This document shows positions 8,376 through 29,349 of a stretch of 64,000 nucleotides of DNA, in pieces (position 1 is the first letter of the stretch; each line of letters begins with the position of its first letter). The notes below the pieces were generated by a model. That model did not search any database and was not told where the DNA came from. It worked only from the letters and a program-made list of their open reading frames with translations. Source of the DNA: Rhodoglobus sp. (GTDB lineage Bacteria; Actinomycetota; Actinomycetes; Actinomycetales; Microbacteriaceae); contig JAODAQ010000027.1 in NCBI GenBank assembly GCA_025463515.1, positions 1-64,000 of the forward strand, in the 5' to 3' direction. A program made the position numbers and the translations under genes.

Positions 8376-9164
8376 CTAGAGCGCCGCGCGAACCTCCTCC
8401 TTGAGCGCAACGACCTCCGGATAGGCGTCGAAGAAGCGCAGCTTGTCGCCGATCACCCCGCCCGCGGGCGAGACCTCGTCGTCGAGCACCCATTCGGCGA
8501 ACGACTCGGCGACGTCCTCGTAGGGGTTCGTCGCGGCGTACTCGCTCACGAAGCCGCCCGACACGTGGCGCTCGGCGATCGCGTCGTCCGACTCGTCGAC
8601 GTCGATCTGTCCCGGCCAGAACTCGGACTCCCACGCGTACAGGTACGACGTGGGCAGCGGGCATCCGGTGCCGTCGTTGTAGACGTCGCAGTCGTAGGCG
8701 CCGAGGTTGAGCGGCACCTGGTTCTTGCGGAGGGTGAGGAGGTGGCCGAACTCGTGGATCATGGTGCGGTCGGCCTCCGACGGGCTGTCGAAGCCGGTCG
8801 TGTCGAGAGCGAGGTACTGCTCGCCCGGGTGGAGCAGGTTCGGCTGCATCGCGCCGTCGGTGTTGTCGGATGCCTCGGCGTCGATCGCCACGAACAGCGT
8901 GATCTCGGGGTGGGTCTCGGCGGGGAACAGCTCGGTGAACCGGTTCCACACCGCCTCGTACTTGGACGGGATCGAGCCGATGATCTCGTCGCCCTCGACG
9001 GCGTAGATCCCGAGAACCTCGAGCGTGTCGTCGCCGATGGGATCGCCCAGCGAGGGGTCGTAGCCGCCGGGCTCGACGGTTCGGGGGCCGAGCAGCCCGG
9101 TGCAGCCGGAGAGGGCGAGCAGGGCGGCAAGGGCGAGTGCGATCGGGGCGCGCAGGGATGTCAC
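8376..9164 (-). CDS. Predicted lipoprotein with HExxH metalloprotease signature
   Basis: The N-terminus has a lipoprotein signal peptide with lipobox LSGC (Cys near residue 21), so the mature protein should be anchored outside the membrane. The central IHEFGHLL is a zinc-binding HExxH motif. About 85 residues later NPYEDVAESFAEW supplies a plausible third ligand or catalytic glutamate, a spacing seen in putative zinc peptidases. Two cysteines (CDVYNDGTGC) may form a disulfide. The GTG start fits TAAGCT 6 nt upstream. It converges with the helicase across 10 bp. Peptidase activity is inferred only. Confidence 0.75.
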   Translation of the reverse strand: MTSLRAPIALALAALLALSGCTGLLGPRTVEPGGYDPSLGDPIGDDTLEVLGIYAVEGDEIIGSIPSKYEAVWNRFTELFPAETHPEITLFVAIDAEASDNTDGAMQPNLLHPGEQYLALDTTGFDSPSEADRTMIHEFGHLLTLRKNQVPLNLGAYDCDVYNDGTGCPLPTSYLYAWESEFWPGQIDVDESDDAIAERHVSGGFVSEYAATNPYEDVAESFAEWVLDDEVSPAGGVIGDKLRFFDAYPEVVALKEEVRAAL

Positions 9165-9234
9165 GGGCCGAGCTTAAAGCACGCCGGCAGCGCTCCGATG
9201 CGCGGAGGCTCGGGTCATGAACACCGGACATAGG

Positions 9235-9281
9235 AAAACGCCCCGGCAGATGCCTTATGAAAGGCAGTGCCGGGGCGTTTC
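9235..9281. terminator. Bidirectional terminator behind the cold-shock gene
   Basis: AAAACGCCCCGGCA pairs with TGCCGGGGCGTTT across a 19-nt loop that itself contains TGCCTT/AAGGCA. The A-rich and T-rich flanks allow it to act in either direction. It lies downstream of cspA on the minus strand. Confidence 0.8.
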
Positions 9282-9300
9282 CGTTACTGAACTATCAAGA

Positions 9301-9504
9301 TCAGAGGGGGCGGATGTTCTCCGCCTGGGGACCCTTCGGTCCCTGTGTGATGTCGAACTCGACCTTCTGGTTCTCGTCGAGAGACTTGTAACCGCTGGTC
9401 GAAATCGCCGAGTAGTGGGCGAACACGTCGGGACTTCCGTCCTCAGGGGCGATGAAACCAAAGCCCTTTTCCGCGTTGAACCACTTGACGGTGCCTAATG
9501 CCAT
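9301..9504 (-). CDS. cspA: Cold-shock domain protein
   Basis: A 67-residue single cold-shock domain that binds single-stranded nucleic acids and acts as an RNA chaperone. RNP1 is KGFGFIAPE and RNP2 is [20 protein letters not shown] at the N-terminus and the final NIRPL are typical for actinobacterial CspA. A strong GGAGGAG ribosome site lies 6 nt before the ATG. TATAGC near 9591-9596 (reverse strand) could be a -10 box, giving a leader of about 80 nt, and long leaders in this family often carry cold-responsive RNA structure. The 156-bp gap to dnaE2 holds only this leader. Confidence 0.95.
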
Positions 9505-9660
9505 TTAAAACTCCTCCAGGAGCGTTCTTCTGGCCCCGACAGTCGAGGCCACACCGACCGCTCCCGAGAGAACAGTCGATGATGAGCCAAGGCTATAGCA
9601 GGAGACCGCCGTGAGCGCCATGTATTTTGGAATCGGTGCGAGATGGTAACAAAGGTTCAT

Positions 9661-12600
9661 CTACCGGAAGTCCCGTGATCGGGTCTTCGGAGCCATCTCG
9701 AGCACCTCGAATCGGTCGGCCAGCACGTTGATCACCCCCTCCGGTGATCGCTCCAGGACGCCGCGGATGATCATGGCCGGCGCCTCCCGCGCGATGCGCC
9801 GGTAGCGGGTCCAGACCCCGACGCTGCAGATCACGTTCACGAGCCCCGTCTCGTCCTCGAGGTTGAGGAACGTGATGCCGCTCGCAGTTGCGGGCCGCTG
9901 CCGGTGGGTGACCACTCCGCCCACCTCGATGCGGCGGCCGCTCTCCGCCACCGCGAGGCCGGCGGCGGTCAGGACGCCCCGGCTCTGCAGCGCCAGGCGC
10001 AGGTGCTGCACGGGGTGGCTGTCGGTCGAGAGGCTGGTGGCCCACAGGTCGGACATGAGCTCCTCCACGGCGGAGGGGAGGCTGAACAGCGGCGGCTGCA
10101 CGGCCACGATGCTCCCGGGCAGGAACTCGGCGCGGTCCTGGGCGGCGTTGCCCGCGTTCCACATCGCCTCGCGCCGCTCGAGGCCGAACCCGTCGAACGC
10201 GCCCGCCGCTGCGAGCACCTCGAGCTGGGCGGTCGTGAGGCCCACCCGCCGCACGAGGTCGTTCATGCTCGTGAATTCTCCGCCGCGCTCGCGCTCCGCG
10301 ACGATCCGCAGCGCGACCTTCTCGCCGATGCCGCTCACCTCGTCGAGGCCGAGCCGCACGGCGTAGTTGCCGTCGCGCCGGTGGTCGTCTGTGTCGAAGT
10401 GGGCGGTGCGGTCGAACTTGTCGGGCACCGCCGGCTGCTCGCGCAGGAGGCAGCGGGGGTCGCCCGTGGCCGGTGATCGAGCGGAGTCGAGATCCGAAGC
10501 GAGGTCTCGGCTCCGCTCGACCAGCGGTTCCAGCCCCGCGTACACCCCGGACTTGAGGATGTCGGGCCGCAGCACCCGCACACCGTGGCGGCGGGCATCC
10601 GCCACCAGGCTCTGCGAGGAGTAGAAGCCCATCGGCTGGGCGCGCAGCATGGCGGCGAGGAACGCTGCCGGGTAGTGCAGCCGCAGCCACGCGCTCGCAT
10701 ACACGAGCAGGCCGAAGCTCAGGGCGTGGCTCTCGGCGAACCCGAACCCCGCGAAGGCCTGGATCGCGCCGTAGATCTTGTCTGCGTTCTCCCCGTGGAT
10801 GCCATGGCCCGCCATACCCTCGTAGAGCTTCGTGCGCAGCTTCTCGATCTTCTCAACACCGCGCTTCGAGCCCATCGCCCTGCGGAGCAAGTCGGCGTCA
10901 TCGGCAGTGCAGCCGCCGACCTCCACCGCGAGCTGCATCAGCTGCTCTTGGAAGATCGGCACTCCCAGGGTGCGCTTGAGAACCTTCTCGAGTTTCGGGT
11001 GGAGGTAGGTGATGTCTTCCTGTCCGGTCTTGCGCCTGACGTACGGATGCACCGCCCCGCCCTGGATCGGACCGGGCCGCACCAGCGCGATCTCCACCAC
11101 CAAGTGGTAGAACTCCCGGGGCTGCAGCCGGGGGAGCAGGCCCATCTGCGCGCGGGACTCCACCTGGAACACCCCGATCGCGTCGGCGCGGCAGAGCTGG
11201 TCGTAGACCCCGGCCTCCTCCTTGGGGATGCCGTCCAGGTCCCAGCTCTCGCCGAGCGAGCCGCGCACGAGGTCGAAGGTGTACTGCAGCGCGGAGAGCA
11301 TCCCCAGCCCGAGCATGTCGAACTTCACCAGGCCCATCCAGGCGCAGTCGTCCTTGTCCCACTGCACGACCGTGCGGTTCTTCATGCGCGCCCACTCGAC
11401 CGGCACCACCTCGCCGACCGGCCGCTTGGTGAGCACCATCCCGCCCGAGTGGATCCCGAGGTGCCGCGGCAGCTTCATCGTCTGCATCGCGAGGTCGATG
11501 ACGACCGGCGGGATGTCGTGGTCGTCGCTCGAGATCGTGGCGCCCCAGCGCTCGACCTGCTTCGACCAGGCATCCTGCTGGCCGGCGCTGTGCCCGAGCG
11601 CCTTGGCCATGTCGCGCACCGCGAACTTGGGGCGGTACTGGATGACGTTCGACACCTGCGCGGCGTTCTCGCGGCCGTACTTGTCGAACATGTACTGGAT
11701 GACCTCCTCGCGCCGCTCGGAGTCGAAGTCCACGTCGATGTCGGGCTCCTCCTCGCGCATGCTCGAGATGAACCGCTCGAAGGGCAGCTTGTACTTGATC
11801 GGGTCTACCGCAGTGATGTTGAGCAGGTAGCAGACGACCGAGCTCGCCGCAGAGCCCCGGCCCTGGCACAGGATGCCCAGGCCCCTGGCGTACCTGACCA
11901 TGTCCCACACGATCAGGAAGTAGCCGGCGAAGTGCTTCTTCTCGATCGCCGCTAGCTCGCCGCTGATCCGGTCGCGGTTCTCCGGCGTCAGCTCCAAGTG
12001 GCGGTCGGCTACCCCGCCCCACACGAGCTCGGCGAGGTAGCTGTCGGGCGTGTGCCCTTCCGGCACCTCCGTGTCGGGCAGCGCGGGCTTGGCCGTGCGC
12101 AGCTCGAAGGCGAGCTCGTCGGCGATGAGCACGGTGTTCTCGATCGCGCCCGGGTACCGCGCGAACCGGGCGGCCATCTCCGCCCCCGAGCGCAGGTACG
12201 CGCCGCCGGATGCGGGCAGCCAGCCGTCGAGCTCGTCGAGGCTCCGGCGCGCCCGCACCGCGGAGAGGGCGGTGTGCAGCGGGTGCTGCGCCGGGGTCGC
12301 GTAGTGCACGTTGCCGGTCGCGACCACGCGCAGGCCGCGCTCCACGGCCAGGTCGTACAGCGCGTCGTTGTTGTCGCTGTCGAGCGGGTCGCCGTGGTCG
12401 AACAGCTCCACGACCACGTTCTCGGCGCCGAACAGCGCGACGAGGCGGTCCAGCTCGGCGCCTGCGGCTTCGCTACGCGCTAGCGCGCTACTCGGCCCGC
12501 CTGATCCCGACCCGCCTGATCCCGACTCCGCTCGATCACCGAGCGCCTGCCGCACGGCGCCCTTGCGGCATCCCGTCAGCACCAGCCAGTGCCCGCCAGC

Positions 12601-18302: not shown

Positions 18303-19418
18303 GTGGGCACCACCTGGGCAGACGTGACAGCGCGCCGGATGTCGCGGCAGCACCTGACCGCTGCGGCGCCCGGCGTCGAGGCCGCCGTCGTCGCCATGGC
18401 CGCGGCCCACGCCCAGGTGGCCTCCGCCGCGGAGCTCTCGATCGGCATCCGCACGGAGGGGACGACCCGGGCCGACGTGCGGGCGGCGCTGGCCGACGGG
18501 ACTCTTACGAAGACCATCGGCCCCCGCGGCACTGTGCACCTCCTGCCCACGCGCGACCTGGGGCTATGGCTCGGCGCCCTCGACTCCCTCCCGGTGTCGA
18601 ACGGCCTCCCTGCTGCGGCGCGGCTGAGCGATGAGCAGCAGGACCAAGTCATCGCCGCCATCGGCGCGGCCCTCGACGACGGCGCCGACCTGACCGCCGA
18701 TGAGCTCGACGACCGGGTCGTTGCCGCGACGGGGGCGTGGGCGGCCGACCCGGTAGTTCCCGCCTTCGGCGGCTGGTGGCCGCGCTGGCGGCAGGCGATC
18801 GCGCGCGCCGCGAGTGCGGGCGCGCTCGCGTACGGCGCAGGTCGAGGCCCGAAGGCCACCTACGCCCGCCCGCCCGCGTTCACCCTCCCGGACGACCCCG
18901 CAGCGGACCTGCTGCGCGAGTACCTGCACAGCTACGGCCCGGCCACGCATCGCGAGTTCGCGCAGTGGCTCGCCGCGCCGCTCGGCTGGGCGGCCTCCGT
19001 GTTCGAGCGGGCTGAGATCGAGGCGGTGCACGTGGAGGGCGGGGAGCGCTGGGTGAACCACGGGGACACGGGCTTCGCGGATGCCCCGGCCACGGGCATC
19101 CGGCTGCTTCCGTACTTCGACCCCTACGCGGTGGGCTCGCACCCGAGGGCGCTCCTGTTCCCGGGCCACGCGGCGGAGCGGGCGCTCGGTCGCGGCCAGG
19201 CGGGGGTGTTCCCGGTGCTGCTGGTCGACGGGGCCGTCGGGGGAGTGTGGCACCAGAAGCGGTCGGGCAAGCGCATCGCGGTGACCGTCGAGCCGCTCCG
19301 CGCCCTCCGCGCGGCGCAGGTGCGAGAGCTGGAGGAGCGCGTCGAGCGGATCGGCGAGATCCTGGAGGGTGCGGCATCCCTGACCGTCGGCGAGGTCTCG
19401 GTGGGGCCGCACGCCTAG
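18303..19418 (+). CDS. Winged-helix DNA-binding protein, AlkZ/HTH_42-like
   Basis: A 371-residue protein whose layout resembles the winged-helix DNA-binding (HTH_42) superfamily that includes the AlkZ and YcaQ DNA glycosylases. Seen: an N-terminal helix-rich region (ARRMSRQHL), the central segment GTVHLLPTRD, PRWRQAIARAASAGAL, a wing region (GPATHREFAQWL), and LLPYFDPYAVGSHPR followed by GVWHQKRSGKR. The last two match the conserved C-terminal part of this family. The catalytic QxD/QxQ motif was not identified with confidence, so DNA-repair activity is unproven. The GTG start fits TAGCCT 6 nt upstream. Confidence 0.75.
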   Translation: MGTTWADVTARRMSRQHLTAAAPGVEAAVVAMAAAHAQVASAAELSIGIRTEGTTRADVRAALADGTLTKTIGPRGTVHLLPTRDLGLWLGALDSLPVSNGLPAAARLSDEQQDQVIAAIGAALDDGADLTADELDDRVVAATGAWAADPVVPAFGGWWPRWRQAIARAASAGALAYGAGRGPKATYARPPAFTLPDDPAADLLREYLHSYGPATHREFAQWLAAPLGWAASVFERAEIEAVHVEGGERWVNHGDTGFADAPATGIRLLPYFDPYAVGSHPRALLFPGHAAERALGRGQAGVFPVLLVDGAVGGVWHQKRSGKRIAVTVEPLRALRAAQVRELEERVERIGEILEGAASLTVGEVSVGPHA

Positions 19419-19502
19419 CAAAGCCGAGCCCCCGGTACAACCCCCGGTGCCGACCGATCCGTTTCCCTATCCTGAAACGAACCCACTGGGGAGGGAGGCG
19501 TC

Positions 19503-20993
19503 ATGATCGACGACAGCGCGACTGACGAGCTGAGGCTTCAGGGCAGGTACCGTCTGGGGAGCCTCATCGCCAACGGCGGCATGGCAGAGGTGTTCCGTGC
19601 CCACGACGACTTCCTGGGGCGTGATGTCGCGGTCAAGGTGTTCCGCGCCAGCGCGACCGCCGAGGTCGACTTCCAGCGCCAGGAGGACGAGGTCAACGTC
19701 CTCGCGCGCCTCAACCACCCGAACCTCGTGACGCTGCTCGATGCGTCGGTGGACCGCACAGACCCGACCGCCACCCGGATCTACTACGTCATGGAGCTCG
19801 TCGAGGGCACCGACCTGAAGCGCCGCCTCGACGAGGGCCCGCTCGTGCCGCGCCAGGTCGCGCAACTCGGCTACTACGCGGCCTCCGGGCTCGAGTACGT
19901 GCACGCGCAGGGCATCGTGCACCGGGACATCAAGCCGGCGAACATCCTGCTGACCTTCAACGAGGACGGCACGCGGGTGACCGCCAAGCTCGGCGACTTC
20001 GGCATCGCCTCGATCGGGCCGGCCGAGCCGATCGCCGACGACGAGATCGTCACGGGAACCGTCGCCTACCTGAGCCCCGAGCAGGCGCGCGGTGAGGAGG
20101 TCGGCGCGGCGAGCGACGTCTACTCGCTCGGGCTCGTGCTCCTGCAGTGCTTCACGGGCGTGCTCGCGTTCCCGGGCCCCGCCGAAGACTCGGCGAGGAG
20201 CCGGCTGCTCGAGGATCCCGCGCTGCCCGACAGCGTTCCCGCGGACTGGGCCCCACTGCTGCGGGCGATGACCGCCCGCGAGCCGCGCGAGCGACCGGAC
20301 ATCCACGACGTCGCTGTCGCGCTGCGGCAGATGTTCGCGGCGGAGAGCGGCAGGCACCGCGCCCCCGTTCTCGAGCAGCTTCCCGCCGAGCGTTCGCCGG
20401 CGGAGCACGAGGCCGCCCGTCTCGACGCCGTGCAGCGCTACGACCTGCTGGGCGCGCCGTCCGAGGACGCGTTCGCCCGCATCACGTCGCTGGCGTCGCG
20501 CGTGCTGCGCACCCCGGTGGCGATCGTGAGCGTCGTCGACCACGACCGCATCTGGTTCACCTCGGCGCACGGCATCCGGGTCACCGACATCGCGCGCGAC
20601 CCTGGACTGTGCGCCTCCGCGATCCTGAGTGACGAGCCGTGGGTGATCGAGGATGCCCGCGCCGACCCCCGGGCTCTCGACAACCCGCTCGTAGCGGGGG
20701 ACTTCGGCCTGCAGTTTTACGCGGGCGTTCCCCTCGCCACGCCCGACGGCTTCAACCTCGGAACCCTGTGCGTGCTCGACTTCGAGCCGCGCACCATCTC
20801 CGCGGACGAGCTCGCCACTCTCCGCGACCTTGCCGCGATGGTCATGCACGAGCTCGAGCTGCGCCGGGAGGCGAAGTCGCTCCTGCGCGTCAACGAGGCG
20901 GACTGGCTAGGAACTCCGGACACCGACGAGGACGGCGCCCTGATCACCAACCGCTCGTCAACGGGCCCGATCGAGGTCAGCGCCGTTTCGTGA
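19503..20993 (+). CDS. Serine/threonine protein kinase fused to a GAF domain
   Basis: A 496-residue signalling protein. Residues about 14-285 form a Hanks-type kinase: glycine loop IANGGMAEVF, VAVKVF (Lys), catalytic loop HRDIKPAN, DFG, and SPEQARG. A short linker leads to a GAF domain (about 305-460: YDLLGAPSEDAF, VSVVDHDRIWF, FYAGVPLATPDG, GTLCVLD). There is no transmembrane segment and no PASTA repeat, so it is a cytoplasmic kinase, perhaps controlled by a ligand bound to GAF. A GGGAGGGAGG ribosome site precedes the ATG. Two GAF-containing pseudo-SGNH proteins follow within 5 kb. Confidence 0.9.
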   Translation: MIDDSATDELRLQGRYRLGSLIANGGMAEVFRAHDDFLGRDVAVKVFRASATAEVDFQRQEDEVNVLARLNHPNLVTLLDASVDRTDPTATRIYYVMELVEGTDLKRRLDEGPLVPRQVAQLGYYAASGLEYVHAQGIVHRDIKPANILLTFNEDGTRVTAKLGDFGIASIGPAEPIADDEIVTGTVAYLSPEQARGEEVGAASDVYSLGLVLLQCFTGVLAFPGPAEDSARSRLLEDPALPDSVPADWAPLLRAMTAREPRERPDIHDVAVALRQMFAAESGRHRAPVLEQLPAERSPAEHEAARLDAVQRYDLLGAPSEDAFARITSLASRVLRTPVAIVSVVDHDRIWFTSAHGIRVTDIARDPGLCASAILSDEPWVIEDARADPRALDNPLVAGDFGLQFYAGVPLATPDGFNLGTLCVLDFEPRTISADELATLRDLAAMVMHELELRREAKSLLRVNEADWLGTPDTDEDGALITNRSSTGPIEVSAVS

Positions 20994-20998
20994 GTGTT

Positions 20999-21015
20999 GC
21001 CCCCGTGGCGGGGGC
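20999..21015 (+). terminator. Short GC hairpin after the kinase gene
   Basis: GCCCCC pairs with GGGGGC around a 5-nt loop, 5 bp after the kinase stop codon. There is no U-tract, so termination is only tentative. Confidence 0.45.
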
Positions 21016-21106
21016 GTGGGCGTCTAGCATGGTGTGACGAGGCACCGGGGTACGACCGGTGCGGCGCAAGCTCGCGGCAGGCCGGTCTGACGTTCGAAGG
21101 GGAGCG

Positions 21107-22300
21107 ATGCTGGGGTACATAGCGCACGGCATCGCCAACCCGATGGCCCGCTTCTGGCTCGCCACCTCCGAGCAGTCCTGGCGGCACCTGCCGACGCCGA
21201 GCGACCCGCCGCTCGTGCACGCGCCGGGCTCCGACTCCGACCGGGTGCTGCTGCTGGGATCGGGCATCGCGGTCGGCTACGGCGTGATGTCGCACGATCT
21301 GGCCCTGGGCGGGTATCTCGCGCGCGAGCTGAGCGCCATCACGCGGCGCGGGGCCTCCGTCGACATCGTGGGGCGCTCCGACCTGTCACCGGCGAGCACG
21401 CGCGCCATCCTCTCCGGCCTCGACCTCTCCCGGTTCGACGCTCTCGTGCTCACACTCGGCGGCCTCGAGTCGCTCACGCTGATGCCCCAGGCGCAGTGGC
21501 GCCGCCAGATGCGCGGGCTGCTCGAGGAGGTGCACAGCGTCGCACCCGCGAGCCTCGCCGTCTTCGTCGTGGAGACCGGCGCTCCGCTGCTCGCGGGGCT
21601 GCCCGCCCTCGTCGGCAGGCTGGTGTGGCGCGCGATGGGCCGGATCAACGCCGCCACCGCCGAGCTCTGCGCAGAGTTCGACAACACGACGTTCGTGGCC
21701 TTCGCCCCCGTGCAGGGCGATGTGAGCACGCTCACCGGCCGCAACACCTACCAGGGGTGGGCCGAGTTGATCGCGCCGGCGGTGGCACGGGTTCTCGACG
21801 AGGAGGTCCGCACGCGGCATCCGGACACCGTCGATGAGGCGCAGCGCCAGCACGCGCTCGACGCGCTCGACGTCGACAGCCTGCCGAACGACGAGCTCGA
21901 GCAGATCGTCGCCAACGCGCGGGACCTGTTCGGCGCGGCAGGCGCGGCGGTGACGCTCATCGACCACGACCTGCAGCGCACGAAGGCGGCGATCGGGATG
22001 TCCACGAGCCCCATCCCGCGGGCGGTGTCGATCTGCGACCTGACCATCCGGCGGGCCGGTCTGCTCGTCGTCGAGGACACCATGACCGACCCGAGGTTCG
22101 CCAACTCGCCCTGGTCGGACGGCGCGCACGGCCGCTTCTACGCCGGGTACCCGGTCGAGTCGCCCGACGGCCAGCGCATCGGCGCGCTGTGCGTCGTCGA
22201 TACCGCTCCGCGGCACTTCAGCGACACGGATGCCGCCCTGCTGCGCCAGCTCGCCCTGCGGGTGCAGTCTGCGCTGTGGGGCAACCGGGTGTCGCGCTAG
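21107..22300 (+). CDS. Degenerate SGNH-like domain fused to GAF (paralogue A)
   Basis: A 397-residue protein with no recognised catalytic function. Residues about 1-235 follow the SGNH-hydrolase order of strands and helices, but each active-site block is altered. GDS is replaced by GSG (LLLGSGIAVGYGV), GxND by GGLE, and the DxxH block by a TYQGWAELIAP sequence. Residues about 245-395 are a GAF domain (FGAAGAAVTLIDHD; FYAGYPVESPDGQRIGALCVVD). GGGGAGCG precedes the ATG at 21107. Paralogues lie at 24770 and 26043. It is probably a sensor or scaffold, and may work with the adjacent kinase. Confidence 0.78.
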   Translation: MLGYIAHGIANPMARFWLATSEQSWRHLPTPSDPPLVHAPGSDSDRVLLLGSGIAVGYGVMSHDLALGGYLARELSAITRRGASVDIVGRSDLSPASTRAILSGLDLSRFDALVLTLGGLESLTLMPQAQWRRQMRGLLEEVHSVAPASLAVFVVETGAPLLAGLPALVGRLVWRAMGRINAATAELCAEFDNTTFVAFAPVQGDVSTLTGRNTYQGWAELIAPAVARVLDEEVRTRHPDTVDEAQRQHALDALDVDSLPNDELEQIVANARDLFGAAGAAVTLIDHDLQRTKAAIGMSTSPIPRAVSICDLTIRRAGLLVVEDTMTDPRFANSPWSDGAHGRFYAGYPVESPDGQRIGALCVVDTAPRHFSDTDAALLRQLALRVQSALWGNRVSR

Positions 22301-22926
22301 CGGCGCCTGGGCTTTCTCGGGCCGGTGGGGCGCTTCGCCCGCGCGGGTCGCGGTGCCTTCGCGGGCTTCGGCGTCTTCGGAGTGGGCTCGCCGCGGGAGC
22401 TGTTCGCGGTGCGGCCGCGCACGATGCCGATGAACTCCTCGACCTCGGGGGTCGTCGTGAGCCACGCGAGGGCCACCTGGGTCTCGGCGCCGTCGGAGAC
22501 GGGGCGGGCCACGACATCGCGGCGGCTCAGCGCCCGCGCCACCGACTGCGGCATCACGGCGACGCCGACGTTCGCGGCGACGAGCTCCACATCGGCAGCC
22601 CAGTCGGTGTCGAGCAGGGTCTCGCCCACGAGGTCGCCGAGTGCCACGGAGTCGAGTGCCTCGACGGCGTGGTCCTTCGGGACCACCACCACCGGCTTCT
22701 CGAAGTAGAGCGGGATGGAGCTGAGGGCCTCGTCCGCGAGCGGCAGCCTCAGCAGGGCGACCTGGGCCTCGCCCGAGAGGAGGGCGGCGACGGCCTCGGC
22801 GGGGGAGCAGGGGCGAAGGGCCAGGGGATGCCGCGGCATCCGGTCGTTCCAGATCCCGGCCCACTTGCCGGGGGTGACGCCGAGCACGTACGCGACCACG
22901 AAGGTCTCGTGCGGGGGTTCGGCCAT
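22297..22926 (-). CDS. LysR-type substrate-binding domain protein without HTH
   Basis: A 209-residue protein matching the effector-binding half of LysR regulators: FVVAYVLGVTPGKWAGIW, PCSPAEAVAALLSGEAQVALLRLP, and LYFEKPVVVVPKDH. The N-terminal DNA-binding helix-turn-helix is missing, and the C-terminus is a 40-residue Lys/Arg/Pro tail that could bind nucleic acid. It is divergent from the DUF5997 gene with only 23 bp between start codons, and overlaps paralogue A by 4 bp at its 3' end. The ATG at 22926 fits TAGCCT 6 nt upstream; GTG 22932 is an alternative. The ligand is unknown. Confidence 0.75.
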   Translation of the reverse strand: MAEPPHETFVVAYVLGVTPGKWAGIWNDRMPRHPLALRPCSPAEAVAALLSGEAQVALLRLPLADEALSSIPLYFEKPVVVVPKDHAVEALDSVALGDLVGETLLDTDWAADVELVAANVGVAVMPQSVARALSRRDVVARPVSDGAETQVALAWLTTTPEVEEFIGIVRGRTANSSRGEPTPKTPKPAKAPRPARAKRPTGPRKPRRR

Positions 22927-22932
22927 GGGCAC

Positions 22933-22942
22933 AGGCTACCCT
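22933..22942. promoter_or_regulatory. Overlapping divergent -10 boxes
   Basis: Reverse -10 TAGCCT (22938-22933) serves the start at 22926, and forward -10 TACCCT (22937-22942) serves the start at 22950. They share two bases, so the two promoters cannot be occupied together. Both genes would be leaderless. Confidence 0.6.
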
Positions 22943-22949
22943 TGGACCC

Positions 22950-23360
22950 GTGCCAGACCAGACCATGAAGCCCGCGACCGCGGCCAAGAAGCTCAACATC
23001 TACCTGCCGGCGACCCCGCAGGAGTTCCAGGACGGCGAGGTCACGCGCAGCCAGTTCGCCGAGCTCGAGAAGAACCCGCCGGAGTGGCTGCTCGAGCTGC
23101 GCAAGAACGGGCCGCACCCGCGCCAGGAGGTCGCGCGCAAGCTCGGCATCTCCACCTCGGGCCTCGCCCGCGCCGGCGCGGCCGACGTCATGACGAGTGC
23201 CGAGATCAAGGCCCTGCTGGAGAAGAAGCCCGAGTGGCTCGTCGTCGAGCGCTCGACCCACGCTGCCGTGCAGGAGGACAACGCGCGCATCAAGACGGAG
23301 CGCGCGGCGAAGGAAGAGACCCGCGGCACCCGTGAATCCGGTGGGGGTCGGGGACGCTGA
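22950..23360 (+). CDS. DUF5997 family protein
   Basis: A 136-residue actinobacterial protein of unknown function. The family hallmarks are MKPATAAKKLNIYLPATP near the start, the repeated PPEWL and KPEWLV motifs, and HPRQEVARKLGISTSGLARAG, which looks like a helix-turn-helix. The charged C-terminus ends in a Gly/Arg tail. A gene for a LysR-type substrate domain is divergently paired with it; the HTH-like segment here and the effector domain there might form one regulator split in two. That link is inference. Confidence 0.8.
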   Translation: MPDQTMKPATAAKKLNIYLPATPQEFQDGEVTRSQFAELEKNPPEWLLELRKNGPHPRQEVARKLGISTSGLARAGAADVMTSAEIKALLEKKPEWLVVERSTHAAVQEDNARIKTERAAKEETRGTRESGGGRGR

Positions 23361-23426
23361 TCCACCGCGGCCGCTGAGCGGCCACTAGGGTGGGGTCACC
23401 GTTCGCAGGACCCGCCGGGAGCCGCC

Positions 23427-24659
23427 ATGTCCTTTCTCAGCTCGCCCCACGAGGCGTTCAGCGCGGGGTTCTACCGCGATAGCGACTTCGACTTCGCGGT
23501 GCGCGGCCTCCTGGGGCACGCGGCATCGGGCGGCTCGGAGCCCGGAGAGGTGCTCGCGACCATCGCGGGCGTCAAGGACGGCGACCACGCGGCGTGGTTC
23601 ACGGCGTGGCACGCGCTGGGGCAGCGGCTGCTGGGGCTCGCGGGCGAGCTGCGCGAGTCTGACCACTTCGACAGCGCCTCCGGCACCTACCTGCGCGCTG
23701 CGAGCTACCTCTCGCTCGCCGTGGACTCGGCCTCCGACTCCGAGCGGCTCGAGGTCTTCCGGCAGCACCGCGCGGCCTGGGACGGCTTCATCGACACCAC
23801 GGTCTACTCGGCCGACCGCGTTGCAATTCCGTACGAGGGCGGCGAACTGCCGGGCTACCTCATCCGGCCGAGCGATGACGAGGAGCCCCGCGCGACGCTC
23901 ATCCTCAACAACGGCAGCGACGGATCGCACAGCTCGATGTGGGGCGACGGGGCCTACGGCGCCCTCGCCCGCGGCTACAACGTCCTGTTCTTCGACGGGC
24001 CCGGGCAGCAGTCGCTCCTGTTCGAGCGGGGCATCCCGTTCCGCCACGACTGGGAGAAGGTCGTGACCCCTATCGTCGACTTCCTCCTCGCCCGGCCGGA
24101 CGTCGACGGCGAGCGGCTCGCGGTGTACGGCATCAGCCAGGGCGGCTACTGGGTGCCCCGCGCCCTCGCGTTCGAGAAGCGGCTCGCGGCGGCGATCGTC
24201 GACCCCGCTGTCGTGGATGTCTCGACCTCGTGGCTCGGCCAGCTGCCGTCCCCGCTCCGGAAGCTGTTCGAGGAGGGCAAGCGCGAGTCGTTCGACCGGG
24301 ACATGGCGATCGGGATGCGCTTCGGGGCCAGCACGGCGCGCACCTGGGCCTTCCGAGCGCGGCCGTTCCGTGCGGGCTCGTCACACACCGACAGCTACTT
24401 CGACACGCTCACCGAGGTGCAGCGGTACGCCCTCGGCGATCTTCCGGCGCAGATCACCACTCCGCTGTTCATCACGGCGCCGGAGGACGAGCAGTTCTGG
24501 CCGGGGCAGTCCGAGCAGTTCGCCGGCGCGCTGACCGGTGAGAAGGTGCTCCAGCCCTTCACCGCGGCCGAGGGCGCGAACTTCCACTGCCAGCCACTCG
24601 CGCGCACGCTCACCGACCAGCGCATGTTCGACTGGCTCGACGCAACCCTCGCGCGATAG
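23427..24659 (+). CDS. Alpha/beta hydrolase with N-terminal helical domain
   Basis: A 410-residue hydrolase similar in layout to FrsA-like and 2,6-dihydroxypseudooxynicotine-type hydrolases. A helical N-terminal region (about 1-125) precedes a typical alpha/beta fold. The nucleophile elbow is YGISQGGYW, the acid is in TAPEDEQFWPG, and the histidine in EGANFHCQP. NNGSDGSHSSMW supplies the oxyanion loop. The ATG follows GGGAGCCGCC. It lies between two pseudo-SGNH paralogues but has no clear functional tie. The substrate is unknown. Confidence 0.85.
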   Translation: MSFLSSPHEAFSAGFYRDSDFDFAVRGLLGHAASGGSEPGEVLATIAGVKDGDHAAWFTAWHALGQRLLGLAGELRESDHFDSASGTYLRAASYLSLAVDSASDSERLEVFRQHRAAWDGFIDTTVYSADRVAIPYEGGELPGYLIRPSDDEEPRATLILNNGSDGSHSSMWGDGAYGALARGYNVLFFDGPGQQSLLFERGIPFRHDWEKVVTPIVDFLLARPDVDGERLAVYGISQGGYWVPRALAFEKRLAAAIVDPAVVDVSTSWLGQLPSPLRKLFEEGKRESFDRDMAIGMRFGASTARTWAFRARPFRAGSSHTDSYFDTLTEVQRYALGDLPAQITTPLFITAPEDEQFWPGQSEQFAGALTGEKVLQPFTAAEGANFHCQPLARTLTDQRMFDWLDATLAR

Positions 24660-24769
24660 CTTTTCGCTGGTCGGACGGATATTCTGGTTCCCACCCGGGG
24701 AGCATCGGATCCTGCGACCCGGCATCGGTCGGGGGACCATGCAGCACCTCACAGTTCTTCGGGGGCATC

Positions 24770-25969
24770 GTGTTTAAGGCCGCCGCGCGGATCGTCGCGG
24801 GCCCGTTCGTCGAGCGCATCCTGGTGGGCGCCGCGCACTCGATGGGCGAACTGCCGCGGCCGGATGGCGCGCCGCGCGTCCACGCCATGGGCCCCGACCC
24901 TGACCGCGTGCTCATGCTCGGCGCCGGCATCGTCAGCGGCATCGGCGTCGCGTCCCACGAACTCGGCATCGGCGGCCACCTCGCGCGCCGGCTCTCGGCA
25001 CTCACCGGCAGGGGAGCGGACGTCGAGCTCGTCGGCGCCCCCGAGCTCACGGTCTCGGGCGCGCGACGGCTCCTCGCCGACGTGGACCTCGGCCGGTTCG
25101 ACGCGGTGGTGGTGATGCTGGGCTCCCGTGAGGCGATCGGCCTGCGTGCCGCGTCGGCGTGGGGCCGCGACATCCGGGGCCTGCTCGACCAGATCACCGC
25201 GAGCGCGCCGCCCGCGCTGCCCGTGTTCATGGTCGCTATCGCGCCACTGCCCAGGGCACTGCCGTTCGGCCGGATCCTCGGCCCGGCTGTGACCCGCCAC
25301 ATCGACCGCCTCAACGCCGTGACGCGGGAGGCCTCCTCGGCGACAGCGCACTACGTGCGGTTCGGCGCGACCCACGCACCGGACTTCAGCGGGCTCAGCG
25401 ACGCGTCCACCTATGCCGGCTGGGCCAACCAGATCGCGGTGCAGATGCAGCCGGTGCTCGACGCCGCAGTACCGGTGCGCGGGTCGATGGGCACCGACGA
25501 GGAGCTTCGGCTCGCATCGCTCCATGCGATGGGCCTGCTCGACAGCCCGCCGACCGCCGAGCTCGACGCTCTCGCCCGCACCGCAAAGGACCTCTTCGGT
25601 GTGATGGGCGCGGCCGTCAACCTCATCGACCGCGACCGGCAGTTCATGAAGAGCGCTGCGGGAATCCCGCGCAACGACATGCCCCGGTCTGAGTCCTTCT
25701 GCTCGACAACCGTCGACCTGGGTGGCGCCCTCGTTCTCGAGGACACCCGCCTCGACCCGAGGTTCAGCGGGTTCGCGGCGGTGCAGCAGGGGATCCTGTT
25801 CTATGCGGGATATCCGGTCGAAGCGCCGAACGGCCAGCGCATCGGCACACTGTGCCTCTTCGACGATCGCCCCCGCATCTTCACGAGCGCGGACGAGTCG
25901 CTGCTGCGAGAACTGGCGCTGCGCGTGCAGGCGGAACTCTGGGCGAGCCCGCGCGTGGCGGTCAGATAG
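24770..25969 (+). CDS. Degenerate SGNH-like domain fused to GAF (paralogue B)
   Basis: A 399-residue paralogue of the gene at 21107. The SGNH-like half has GAG in place of GDS (LMLGAGIVSGIGV), GSRE in place of GxND, and a TYAGWANQIAV stretch at the position of the DxxH block. The GAF half reads LLDSPPTAELDALART, VNLIDRDRQFMKS, FYAGYPVEAPNGQRIGTLCLFDD. The SxxGIG and GRGADVELVG landmarks are kept. GTG at 24770 follows a GGGGG run. No catalytic triad is visible, so this is likely a non-enzymatic ligand-binding or signalling protein. Confidence 0.76.
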   Translation: MFKAAARIVAGPFVERILVGAAHSMGELPRPDGAPRVHAMGPDPDRVLMLGAGIVSGIGVASHELGIGGHLARRLSALTGRGADVELVGAPELTVSGARRLLADVDLGRFDAVVVMLGSREAIGLRAASAWGRDIRGLLDQITASAPPALPVFMVAIAPLPRALPFGRILGPAVTRHIDRLNAVTREASSATAHYVRFGATHAPDFSGLSDASTYAGWANQIAVQMQPVLDAAVPVRGSMGTDEELRLASLHAMGLLDSPPTAELDALARTAKDLFGVMGAAVNLIDRDRQFMKSAAGIPRNDMPRSESFCSTTVDLGGALVLEDTRLDPRFSGFAAVQQGILFYAGYPVEAPNGQRIGTLCLFDDRPRIFTSADESLLRELALRVQAELWASPRVAVR

Positions 25970-26042
25970 CACGAGCCGCGTTTGGGGGATTACTCCCTGA
26001 GTGATACTCGCCATATGCTGACCTCCGAGGGGGAGGCAGTCC

Positions 26043-26759
26043 ATGTTGGATGCACTGAGGACGACCGTGATCACGCCGATGGTAGAGCGCTGGCTGGTGG
26101 GCTCCGACGCGTCCTGGCGCACCCTGCCCGTGCCCTCCGGCCCGCCCGTCGCCAACTCCGAGGGCCCGGACCCCGACCGGGTCCTGCTGTTCGGCTCCGG
26201 CATCGCCATGGGCTACGGCATGAAGTCCCACGACCTCGCGCTGGCCGGCCAGCTGGCCCGCCAGGTCTCCGATCTCACGGGCCGCGGAGTGCAGGTCGAC
26301 GTCGTCACGGGGGAGAACCTCACCGTCGACAACGCGCTCAAGAACCTCACCGTCAGCCGCCTGCGCGAGCTCGACGTCATCGTCACCACGCCGGGCACTC
26401 TCGAGAAGCTCCTCCTCATGCCGCTGCCGATCTGGCGGGCGCGCATCGAGTACCTCCTCGACCACTTCGCCGTCAACGCGCCGGCGAGTCTGCGGGTGGT
26501 GTTCGTCGCCGTGCCCGAGATGTCCAAGGTCGTCCGGATGCCGCGGCTCCTGGGCTGGGTGGCGGACCGGTCCGCCCGGGCCCTCAACACGGTGCTCGAG
26601 GCCTCGTGCGCGGCGCGGCCGTACACCGAGTTCATCCCGTTCCGGCCCACCGAGCGCTCCGGGAGGGACGGCACCGGCCGCACCTACCAGCACTGGGCGT
26701 CGTTGATCGCTCCGCGGGTCGCGCTCGCGCTGGACGAGCACCAGAAGGTGTCGCACTAG
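26043..26759 (+). CDS. Stand-alone degenerate SGNH-like protein (paralogue C)
   Basis: A 238-residue paralogue lacking GAF. It has GSG instead of GDS (LLFGSGIAMGYGM), GTLE instead of GxND, and TYQHWASLIAP instead of the DxxH block. As in paralogues A and B it starts with a WLVGSDASWRTLP-like leader and keeps SHDLAL. GGGGGAGG, 6 nt before the ATG, is a strong ribosome site. The TYxxWAxxIA and GxxE residues common to all three copies are probably functional replacements for the lost triad. Confidence 0.76.
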   Translation: MLDALRTTVITPMVERWLVGSDASWRTLPVPSGPPVANSEGPDPDRVLLFGSGIAMGYGMKSHDLALAGQLARQVSDLTGRGVQVDVVTGENLTVDNALKNLTVSRLRELDVIVTTPGTLEKLLLMPLPIWRARIEYLLDHFAVNAPASLRVVFVAVPEMSKVVRMPRLLGWVADRSARALNTVLEASCAARPYTEFIPFRPTERSGRDGTGRTYQHWASLIAPRVALALDEHQKVSH

Positions 26760-26885
26760 CCAGAACGTGCCGCACTAGGGTCCGTCCGACCTCGAGATCC
26801 TGTTTCTCGCAGAACCAGAAGGCCCTGCCGGGGTAGCGTTGTACTCGGCGCAGGTGCGCCCGCTGAACAGGAAGACTCCCAACAC

Positions 26886-27614
26886 GTGCCAGAGTGCATC
26901 CACGGTCTCGAGATTCCGCTCTGCGACGCGTGCTATCCCAAAGCCCAGCCGGTCAAGCCGGTAGTCGCCCGCGTGACCCGTCCGGCCGCGCCCCGTGCGA
27001 TCCGCGGCTCGGTGGCGACCAGTTCGCGCAAGTCGATCGACCCGGCCAGGCAGCGGGTCTACCACGTCACCCACATCGGCAATCTCGAGGCGATCCTGGC
27101 CTCCGGCGAGCTCGGCGCCCGGGCGACTCCGCTCGTCGACCTGAGCACCGACCTGACCCGAGAACTGCGACTGACGGCCGAAGTGAGCGGCGGCCGCTCC
27201 GTTGCGGACTTCGTCTCCTTCTACCTCGCGCCGAGCGCGAACCTGTGGGACGACCTCCGTCGTGGCGCGGACGACGAGACCCGGTGGTCGGCTGCCGCGC
27301 GCTCCGCGGCCTCTGCCGACTTCGTCGTGCTCGTGACCACGGTCGCCGAACTCGGGCCGGAGGCGGTCGTGACCGACGGCGACGCAGCGGGGAGCCTCAC
27401 CCGGTTCTCGACGGGCGACGACATCACCCGCGCACTCACCAAGCTGCACGACAGTGAGGCGCTCGGCGTCGCGGAGGTTCTCGCACCGGACTCGGTGCCC
27501 TTCTCCTCGATCCAGCTCATCGGCGTGGCGAACGATCCCGTCCGCGACCGCGTGCGCGAGCTGACGTCGGCCAAGGTGGCGGTGTACCCGCCGTGGTTCC
27601 AGGCTGAGCTGTAG
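26886..27614 (+). CDS. DarT-like ADP-ribosyltransferase (DUF4433) with N-terminal Zn-type motif
   Basis: A 242-residue protein resembling DarT, which ADP-ribosylates thymidine in single-stranded DNA. YHVTHIGNLEAIL (His60, His63) and RSVADFVSFYLAPSANLW match the conserved NAD-binding and ARTT-type segments, and LGVAEVLAPDSVP supplies the catalytic Glu near residue 196. DarT toxins are usually coupled to a macrodomain antitoxin DarG; none lies on either side. The N-terminus adds Cys4, His6, Cys13 and Cys16, a likely metal site not in classic DarT. The GTG start follows AGGAAG. Confidence 0.72.
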   Translation: MPECIHGLEIPLCDACYPKAQPVKPVVARVTRPAAPRAIRGSVATSSRKSIDPARQRVYHVTHIGNLEAILASGELGARATPLVDLSTDLTRELRLTAEVSGGRSVADFVSFYLAPSANLWDDLRRGADDETRWSAAARSAASADFVVLVTTVAELGPEAVVTDGDAAGSLTRFSTGDDITRALTKLHDSEALGVAEVLAPDSVPFSSIQLIGVANDPVRDRVRELTSAKVAVYPPWFQAEL

Positions 27615-27650
27615 CTGAGCTGTAACTGAGCTTGTCAGGCGGCGCCCGGC

Positions 27651-27962
27651 TCACGCCGCGAGCGTGCCGATCAGACGCCAGACCGTGCTCGTCAGCGCAG
27701 GGTGCTCGAGCGCGATCTGGCGCAGCACCCGGTACTCCCGAGTCGGGCCGGGCCGCACACCGTCGTTCGCGCTGATGGCCTCCGCGCGCAGCAGGTAGAC
27801 CACGAGCTCGTCGACGCTCGGCAGCTCCTCCATGAAGTCCCACGGGTCCTCCCCGGCGAGCAGCCGCTCGTGCACGACGGTCTCGAGCTCCTGCGCCGCC
27901 TCCGCCCGCAGCACCTCCAGGCTCGCGCGCCGTCCCACCCGGTACTCGCGAAACTCAGCCAC
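27651..27962 (-). CDS. Hypothetical protein
   Basis: A 103-residue acidic, mostly helical protein (MAEFREYRVGRRASLEVLRAEAAQ). No family was recognised. The GTG start fits TAGGGT 6 nt upstream, which supports it being a real gene. It is convergent with the DarT-like gene and divergent from the acetyltransferase. It is not a macrodomain, so it is not an obvious DarG; a role as an unrelated antitoxin cannot be excluded. Confidence 0.6.
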   Translation of the reverse strand: MAEFREYRVGRRASLEVLRAEAAQELETVVHERLLAGEDPWDFMEELPSVDELVVYLLRAEAISANDGVRPGPTREYRVLRQIALEHPALTSTVWRLIGTLAA

Positions 27963-28038
27963 TCATCGACCCTACGTCGGGCTCCCGACGAGCCCAAACG
28001 CACCCGCCGGATGCTCGGCAACCCCATAGCCTTTAACC

Positions 28039-29349
28039 ATGAGCGACGCCCGCGACTACACCAGCCTGCCCATCGACGCGGTCTCCGCAGCCGCCCTCGC
28101 GTCGCACGACTTGCGGCTGGGACTCGTGGACACCGCTGACGCCGCTGCCTTCACCGCGTGGCTGCGCGCCGACCATCGCGGGTTCCACCTCGCCGAGGCC
28201 GGCGACGAGATCATCGCGGCGAGCCTCACTGGCCTCGCGTATCGCCGCACCACCGGGGTGTGGGATGAGAGCGCGCGGGACGCGGCATCCCCGGTCGCGA
28301 CCGTCAACTCCTGGACGGCGGGCATGACCGTCCCGGGCGGCAGCCGGATCGAGGCGTGGGCGATCAGCTCCGTGACGGTGGCGCCGACGCACCGCCGCAA
28401 GGGCATCGCGCGGGCGCTGCTCGAGGCGGAGCTGCGCACGGCTGCGGCGCTGGGCATCCCGCTCGCCACCCTGACCGTCAGCGAGTCGACGATCTACGGC
28501 CGCTTCGGCTTCGCCCCGGCCGCGTTCGCCAACGAGCTGACCATCGACACCCGCCGTGCCGCGTGGACCGGGCCCGCCAGCCCCGGGCGCCTGCACTTCT
28601 TGACCGCCGCCGAGTTCCGTGCGGAGCTTCCGGCTCTGCACGAGCGGATCCGCGCGACCGGTGTCGGCCAGCTCGACGCGTGGGACCTGCGCTGGGACGC
28701 CCTCGCCGGCCTCATCACGGAGGACAAGGAGCGCGCCAAGAACCTGCGGGCGATCCGCTACGACGACGCCGACGGAGCGCTGCGCGGTCTCGCGCTGTAC
28801 CGCGTCTCGGGCGGGGATCCTGATTTCGCGGCCCACACCCTCACAGTCGAGTACTTGGCGAGCGAGACGGATGACGCCTACGCCGCCCTCTGGCGCTACC
28901 TTCTCGAGGTCGACCTGGTGAGCATGGTCAAGGCCTTCGACCGCCCCGTGGACGAGCCGCTCGTGTGGCAGGTCGCTGACATGCGCGCCGTCAAGCAGGC
29001 GCCCTACGACCACGTGTGGACGCGCATCCTCGACGTGCCGCGCGCGCTGTCCGCCCGCAGCTACGCAGCGCCGCTCGAGACGGTGATCGAGGTCTCCGAC
29101 GACCTGGACTTCACCGCGGGCCGCTATTCCCTGTCGATCGCGGACGGCGCGGCAGTCATCGAGCGAACGGATGCCCCGGCCGACCTCGCCCTGCGCATCA
29201 ACGAGCTCTCCGCCCTGCACCTGGGCGGAGTCTCGGCCGCGGCCCTGACTGCGGCCGGCCGGATCACCGAACTGCGCGCCGGCGCGGCCGCGGCCCTGGA
29301 GCTCGCCTTCCGGACCAGTAGAGCGCCCTGGCTCTCGTTCTGGTTCTAG
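28039..29349 (+). CDS. Eis-like GNAT N-acetyltransferase
   Basis: A 436-residue acetyltransferase built like mycobacterial Eis: an N-terminal GNAT domain with the acetyl-CoA loop VAPTHRRKGIARALL (about residue 115-130) and YGRFGFAPA, a second GNAT-like domain, and a C-terminal sterol-carrier-like domain. The final residues WLSFWF leave a C-terminal aromatic carboxylate, which acts as the catalytic base in Eis enzymes. Eis proteins acetylate amines, including aminoglycosides; the substrate here is not known. The ATG fits TAGCCT 6 nt upstream. Confidence 0.87.
   Translation: MSDARDYTSLPIDAVSAAALASHDLRLGLVDTADAAAFTAWLRADHRGFHLAEAGDEIIAASLTGLAYRRTTGVWDESARDAASPVATVNSWTAGMTVPGGSRIEAWAISSVTVAPTHRRKGIARALLEAELRTAAALGIPLATLTVSESTIYGRFGFAPAAFANELTIDTRRAAWTGPASPGRLHFLTAAEFRAELPALHERIRATGVGQLDAWDLRWDALAGLITEDKERAKNLRAIRYDDADGALRGLALYRVSGGDPDFAAHTLTVEYLASETDDAYAALWRYLLEVDLVSMVKAFDRPVDEPLVWQVADMRAVKQAPYDHVWTRILDVPRALSARSYAAPLETVIEVSDDLDFTAGRYSLSIADGAAVIERTDAPADLALRINELSALHLGGVSAAALTAAGRITELRAGAAAALELAFRTSRAPWLSFWF

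Follow-up and report, generated by a model that had tools for sequence, protein, structure and literature searches.

The 64,000-nucleotide window analyzed here is the start of contig JAODAQ010000027.1 of Rhodoglobus sp. (GCA_025463515.1, Microbacteriaceae), with a G+C content of 69%. Between positions 19503 and 26759 it encodes a Ser/Thr kinase fused to a GAF domain and three paralogues, here named A, B and C, which profile comparison and structure models place in the SGNH fold and in which the nucleophile, the oxyanion-hole residues and the DxxH motif are absent. A and B also carry GAF domains. The three belong to a conserved family, referred to below as pseudo-SGNH. Our preferred reading, held with about even confidence, is that its members are soluble intracellular, non-catalytic SGNH-fold sensors or adaptors, coupled to a kinase-GAF protein in some lineages. 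The value of the locus lies in this family of dead SGNH proteins more than in a fixed kinase module. The original prediction, made from the letters of the window, had described four open reading frames (the kinase-GAF, A, B and C), all of which were found as claimed; its observation is partly confirmed and its interpretation partly supported.

Fold and catalytic residues of the three paralogues

The SGNH-like layout was recovered by profile comparison, by fold searches for A and C and by a Pfam match for B. In a profile-profile comparison, a kind of check proposed along with the original prediction, hhalign aligned 16 pseudo-SGNH with 8 intact SGNH domains over 218 columns (probability 99.5%, E 3.8e-22). 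AlphaFold2 (AF2) models cover A (predicted local distance difference test, pLDDT, 82.8; predicted template modeling score, pTM, 0.65) and C (pLDDT 83.9, pTM 0.83), and the fold of B rests on Lipase_GDSL_2 (PF13472), reached just above the cut-off (33.0 bits, cut-off 32.9). A remains under this cut-off with 27.2 bits, C gave no match to the same model at E up to 1, and 16 of 21 GAF-fused members matched it at E up to 0.01.

Foldseek searches with the model of A returned the SGNH esterases 8ik1 (E 2.7e-6) and 7e16 (E 3.4e-6) amid many GAF structures, such as 4zmu (E 1.8e-13). With the model of C, the top matches were 7e16 and 8ik1 (E 1.5e-5, template modeling (TM) score 0.55 by query and 0.62-0.63 by target), followed by further SGNH hydrolases and, lower in the list, by some alpha/beta-hydrolase, Rossmann-like and GTPase folds. 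C has 10-13% identity with 7e16 and 8ik1, and the target TM scores over the matches of A and C range from 0.60 to 0.64. A confident non-SGNH fold, which would have spoken against the prediction, emerged neither from the profile comparison nor from Foldseek. Two other assignments of C, as a dehydrogenase (NF045814, E 1.3e-5, 25 bits against a cut-off of 450) and as a uridylate kinase (3nwy, E 0.0024), were set aside because the fold search puts SGNH hydrolases first.

The catalytic residues were compared in an alignment of 167 domains: 10 intact, 10 of a 'third' set separated by eye and 147 pseudo-SGNH domains, 111 of them fused to GAF. They come from chosen regions of the search listings (20 per search, plus the window) in one genus and its family, and the search profile was seeded with the three domains of the window. 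From 171 hits, 4 with fewer than 150 aligned columns were dropped (L095, two pieces of L164 and one of L097). Members were called GAF-fused by a match to a custom GAF profile; the Pfam GAF model detects 19 of 21 tested.

Intact relatives of the same genus have GDSTAAGVG in block I, GANDA in block III and, in block V, the order D-x-F-H-P-x-x-x-G-Y-R-D-W. As had been proposed, the paralogues of the window replace GDS by GSG, GAG and GSG within the pattern G(S/A)GxxxGxG, and GxND by GGLE, GSRE and GTLE (in A, B and C, respectively). The block II Gly is replaced by Asp in A, Glu in B and Asn in C. On the other hand, the proposed replacement of DxxH by TYxxWAxxIA was misregistered: since GYRDW follows DxFHP in the intact relatives, TYxxWA is the ancestral GYxxWA, and DxxH itself has been lost. 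No DxxH was found in A, B or C, in the alignment or independently of it, only a DxxH-free segment followed by TYxxWA. The three proteins share with SGNH/GDSL hydrolases the fold, the block order, the GYxxWA after block V and profile similarity to intact relatives, but they lack the Ser, the block II Gly, the Asn and DxxH. The family also differs in its GAF fusions, of which the 10 intact members have none.

Across the 147 pseudo-SGNH domains the change is shared but not uniform: the block III Asn is still present in 44, and the GxxE pattern of the window paralogues recurs in 66. The position of the catalytic Ser is occupied by Gly in 133 domains, Ala in 7, Asp in 3, Ser in 2 and Pro in 2. The block II Gly is retained in 12/147 (10/10 in the intact set). 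The residue that follows the Asn is acidic in 141/147 (75 Asp, 66 Glu), and likewise in the 10 intact domains. For DxxH, the Asp column is a gap in 140 domains and the His column holds His in 17. Since gaps may also arise from the alignment itself, the motif was searched for in the unaligned sequences as well: it occurs anywhere near the end in 14/147, and 5 domains, each of them fused to GAF, have it 5-7 residues ahead of the Tyr, the canonical spacing. Ser, Asn and DxxH occur together in none of the 147, and the full catalytic set in none of the 111 GAF-fused members. One position, numbered His63 in A, is His in 127/147 pseudo-SGNH domains and in 9/10 of the 'third' set, and Gln in 9/10 intact domains.

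The 'third' set (GDx...GPPD) was found in the same genus (L098-L104, L106, L108 and L115). It retains the block I Asp in 10/10 and the Ser in 5/10, has Pro at the block III Asn position and no DxxH, and by these residues is a second SGNH line having lost catalytic residues.

Conservation and distribution of the family

By a simple Nei-Gojobori count, the ratios of nonsynonymous to synonymous substitution rates (dN/dS) of A, B and C against the genes of seven relatives are 0.18-0.46; pairs of close relatives have 0.02-0.14, and the kinase 0.22-0.28. The changes in the catalytic blocks go beyond chance, as they recur throughout the set of 147 and purifying selection acts on the genes, in agreement with the conserved function, and not decay, that had been proposed. 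Combining residue loss with purifying selection, A, B and C can be regarded as candidate pseudoenzymes.

Dead enzymes with new roles are well known among kinases and, to our knowledge, much less so among SGNH hydrolases. No description of SGNH-GAF fusions or of this family was found among titles and the first lines of abstracts, most subscription journals being outside this scope. The word GAF occurs 0 times in the main text of an SGNH review (PMC9487903). The SGNH half of such proteins may go unnoticed in routine annotation, since the one annotated long match among the plasmid records, from Frondihabitans sp. PAMC 28766 and extending over 80% of A, is named just 'GAF domain-containing protein'.

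In quick trees, with support from the Shimodaira-Hasegawa-like approximate likelihood ratio test (SH-aLRT) only and the intact set as root of the domain tree, the 147 pseudo-SGNH domains group together (SH-aLRT 95) except for two, L094 and one domain of L166, which leaves 145 in the group. The intact and the 'third' sets are supported by 100 and 99, respectively. The GAF label requires 15 changes on this tree, so GAF has been lost or gained repeatedly, and C falls in a GAF-less group nested inside the GAF-fused tree.

With A as query, 144 of 299 family genomes match at E <= 1e-12, GAF-only matches included, and in 76 the best match has E <= 1e-38 (at most 6 candidates scored per genome). At E <= 1e-15 and with 7 candidates scored in each genome, the domain profile matched 2 of 396 phylum genomes. 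One is the genome of the window; in the other, from outside the family, the match (L125) is an intact SGNH with GDS, GVND and DGFH and no GAF match. The family therefore looks like an expansion within Microbacteriaceae; in a hand-compiled list, genomes of the genus have as many as five pseudo-SGNH genes. Homologues with the catalytic set, which the original prediction had held against a new function, do exist (the 10 intact relatives and L125), but they form a separate group and the 10 are without GAF. One intact relative (L038) is encoded by the window's own genome on another contig.

Kinase, GAF domains and possible functions

The first of the four genes is a Ser/Thr kinase-GAF, as had been described, with intact kinase motifs. 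It is like PknB-type kinases in these motifs and reaches 221.6 bits with the NCBIfam Stk1/PknB model, below the cut-off of 450; it is unlike them in having no PASTA in the Pfam scan and in bearing a GAF of the pseudo-SGNH kind. The GAF domains of the kinase, A and B all exceed the Pfam cut-off of 22.4 bits (table), and a search of the window's genome with the kinase GAF (E up to 0.01) finds no GAFs besides those two of A and B. The GAFs of the kinases form one tree group (7 rows, SH-aLRT 99; in a second tree 10 rows, 100), which falls among the pseudo-SGNH GAFs. These similarities point to one GAF pool on which kinase and pseudo-SGNH proteins draw, perhaps with a single transfer from a pseudo-SGNH-GAF protein to the kinase. 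Domains of the same kind are also found in diguanylate cyclases and phosphodiesterases (4zmu and plasmid-borne EAL/GGDEF proteins). The C-terminal half of the pseudo-SGNH-GAF proteins is of this type, but in place of a GGDEF/EAL output it is joined to a dead SGNH domain, or, in the kinase-GAF, the GAF is joined to a Ser/Thr kinase.

We suggest that the former active-site pocket binds a small molecule without hydrolyzing it, by means of the glycine loop GxGxxxGxG, the conserved His63, YxxW and the acidic residue that follows the former Asn position. The state of the ligand would be relayed through the GAF domain, which probably also dimerizes. In lineages with a kinase-GAF, pairing of like GAFs could let the pseudo-SGNH-GAF protein set kinase activity, the weakest step of this proposal, and in other lineages these proteins would act with other, unlinked partners. 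The data suggest that Salinibacterium-related bacteria reused an enzyme fold for sensing or regulation: in one fold the catalytic blocks disappeared, its paralogues became numerous across a bacterial family, and it was combined with a sensory domain that the same genomes also use on a Ser/Thr kinase. More tentatively, and with the balance of probability on the other side, Microbacteriaceae may have turned a hydrolase into a class of receptors, whose reshaped pocket binds an intracellular ligand and whose exchangeable GAFs signal to partners including a Ser/Thr kinase with an acquired GAF.

Several observations weigh against the sensor or adaptor reading. The Asn kept in 44/147 domains means that the pocket was not changed in one uniform way, and GAF-less members like C show that GAF is not always needed. 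The GAF-fused L205 (5235-6503, - strand) keeps the Ser and a DRFH before TYxxWA, without the Asn or the block II Gly; judging by these residues it could carry a working Ser-His-Asp set and may still be an enzyme. L164 is broken, in two pieces. Hydropathy over 19 residues peaks at 1.28-1.78, with the kinase, A and B at 1.6-1.8, though these peaks lie inside the folded kinase and SGNH domains; the pattern fits soluble proteins, without being a proof.

The link with the kinase has its own difficulties. Genome sets and coordinates were compiled by hand from the search listings, and kinase proximity was assessed for the nine genomes whose kinase match has an E of at most 5.4e-109. Of the 27 genomes of the genus, 7 have a kinase related to that of the window no more than 5 kb from a pseudo-SGNH gene, with gaps between matches of 104-117 bp in four (in one of these, G003, the kinase has no GAF match), about 1.2 kb in two and 3.2 kb in one. 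In two further genomes this kinase is on another contig, and in G004 (L083) about 5.1 kb separate a pseudo-SGNH-GAF gene from a weaker kinase-domain match that does not enter the count. Outside the genus a kinase is rarely beside pseudo-SGNH genes. Of the 60 regions taken from other genera (L160-L219), a single one (L196, genome G658) has a kinase-GAF next to a gene for a pseudo-SGNH-GAF protein, at a distance of 153 bp; a comparison by eye of the matches listed showed no second pairing at 5 kb or less beyond the genus. L193 has a kinase without GAF 4.6 kb from a pseudo-SGNH gene. In L092, also from another genus, a 695-amino-acid kinase without a GAF match (8617-10704, +) follows a pseudo-SGNH-GAF gene after 91 bp, and another kinase is 2.4 kb away.

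At the genome level, long kinase-GAF matches were found in 63 of 299 family genomes. A strong pseudo-SGNH-GAF match is present in 39 of these 63 and in 37 of the other 236 (Fisher p 2e-12), but the test ignores phylogeny, and the remaining 24 kinase-GAF genomes have no strong pseudo-SGNH-GAF match among the matches listed. The nesting of the kinase GAFs has modest support, and 2 of 4 other GAF rows nest too in the 10-row tree. The original prediction had suggested a coordinated sensory module, against which the absence of a nearby kinase in related genomes would have spoken. The shared kind of GAF and the co-occurrence favor such a module, but adjacency is uncommon, and given the low proximity in the genus and elsewhere it is lineage-limited and unproven.

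Among other explanations, the one that survives best, in our view still unlikely, is that the dead SGNH domains are scaffolds or allosteric partners that control an active enzyme (an intact SGNH, the kinase or a neighboring regulator) without a small ligand. The intact L038 in the window's genome would provide such a partner, and across much of the genus pseudo-SGNH genes keep a stable arrangement with those for DUF5997, LysR-like and DarT-like proteins. However, L038 is on another contig, and genomes such as G001, G005 and G010 have pseudo-SGNH genes but, among the matches, only the 'third' set and no intact close relative. Outside the genus the same neighbors are a minority, with DarT-like genes in 4 of the 60 regions, GNAT in 4 and DUF5997 in 3.

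It is slightly less probable that these proteins are still enzymes, for hydrolysis, acyl transfer or another reaction, with a new active site formed by His63, the Asp/Glu after the old Asn and other pocket residues. Both are highly conserved and lie in or beside the old active-site blocks, L205 keeps Ser and DxxH, and loss of the block V Asp, for example, is tolerated in SGNH enzymes (PMC9487903). Nevertheless, no candidate nucleophile replaces the Ser, which is mostly Gly in the family and Gly in all three window proteins, and the block II Gly and DxxH are gone as well. The acidic position, being acidic in the intact domains too, may be structural.

Binding of nucleic acids seems very unlikely. 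The OSK domain of insect Oskar is RNA-binding and non-catalytic, an SGNH-like fold used beyond hydrolysis. It is described as SGNH-like and traced to bacterial GDSL-like sequences in PMC7250577, and one member of the 'third' set (L104) reaches the Pfam OSK model (27.8 bits, cut-off 27). A, B and C, which are bacterial and whose family includes GAF fusions, have no OSK match at E up to 1, and OSK was matched by 1/19 members of set A2 and 0/21 of the GAF-fused set A1.

Decay of SGNH hydrolase genes, to which the lost catalytic residues, the low Pfam scores, the split L164 and an inner stop in a second long match of G641 could be ascribed, has almost no probability. The dN/dS values (0.02-0.46) and the conservation refute it for A, B and C, as do the shared new residues and, among the matches listed, long matches without inner stop in many genera.

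Layout of the locus and neighboring genes

Features of the pseudo-SGNH locus, with positions in the window; ~ marks approximate domain limits
Feature	Position	Strand	Evidence
Ser/Thr kinase-GAF	19503-20993	+	PF00069 147 bits, PF01590 53.8 bits; kinase ~19551-20312, GAF ~20463-20849; motifs VAVK, HRDIKPAN, DFG and SPE all present
Paralogue A, pseudo-SGNH + GAF	21107-22300	+	GAF 50.7 bits, ~21893-22276
A block I GSG (GDS in intact relatives; catalytic Ser to Gly)	21257-21265	+	Alignment
A His63	21293-21295	+	Alignment
A block III GGLE (GxND in intact relatives)	21458-21469	+	Alignment
A YxxW, from the ancestral GYxxWA; the lost DxxH lay upstream of it	21749-21760	+	Alignment
LysR substrate-binding-domain protein	22297-22932	-	PF03466 68.1 bits, sole Pfam match; no helix-turn-helix matched
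DUF5997 protein	22950-23360	+	PF19460 166 bits
Alpha/beta hydrolase (S9-like), outside the pseudo-SGNH family	23427-24659	+	Pfam and neighborhood comparison
Paralogue B, pseudo-SGNH + GAF	24770-25969	+	Lipase_GDSL_2 33.0 bits; GAF 45.3 bits, ~25556-25933
B block I GAG replacing GDS	24920-24928	+	Alignment
B block III GSRE replacing GxND	25121-25132	+	Alignment
Paralogue C, lone pseudo-SGNH domain	26043-26759	+	AF2 model, Foldseek, tree
C block I GSG replacing GDS	26193-26201	+	Alignment
C block III GTLE replacing GxND	26394-26405	+	Alignment
DarT-like protein, recurrent pseudo-SGNH neighbor	26886-27614	+	PF14487 61.7 bits

The fusion of GAF to two of the paralogues, also part of the original prediction, was found in A and B by Pfam. 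The four genes had been presented as neighbors; they are correctly delimited, but that account leaves out what separates A from B, a LysR-like, a DUF5997 and an alpha/beta hydrolase gene, and the module genes are therefore not contiguous. Open reading frames were called mechanically and their N-termini are uncertain; for A the list gives a GTG at 21059, and we prefer the ATG at 21107 as the likely start. No sigma-70-type promoter or terminator-like site was found in 19300-28100.

The LysR-like gene, a conserved neighbor, is convergent with A and divergent from the DUF5997 gene, and this pair is kept beside pseudo-SGNH genes in much of the genus. DUF5997 is the steadiest neighbor: in 23 of the 27 genus genomes it is found no more than 5 kb from a pseudo-SGNH gene. 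Since it is present in all 27 (in G022 away from pseudo-SGNH genes), it is an old gene beside which the pseudo-SGNH family sits. Clustering of neighbors gave DarT-like genes in 20 loci, GNAT-type acetyltransferases in 13, ABC-ATPase-like genes (named from the start of the sequence) in 13, DUF5997 in 12, kinases in 10 and LysR-like genes in 10; from L160 on, each is found in 0-3 loci and the ATPase in 5. The clustering misses some short genes, and the direct search finds DUF5997 more often. The alpha/beta hydrolase also sits between two pseudo-SGNH-GAF genes in L040.

The DarT-like protein downstream of C reaches 50 bits with the NCBIfam DarT toxin model, below the cut-off of 150. Immediately upstream of the kinase-GAF, at 18303-19418 (+), there is a gene for a protein with an AlkZ-like DNA glycosylase domain (PF06224, 173 bits).

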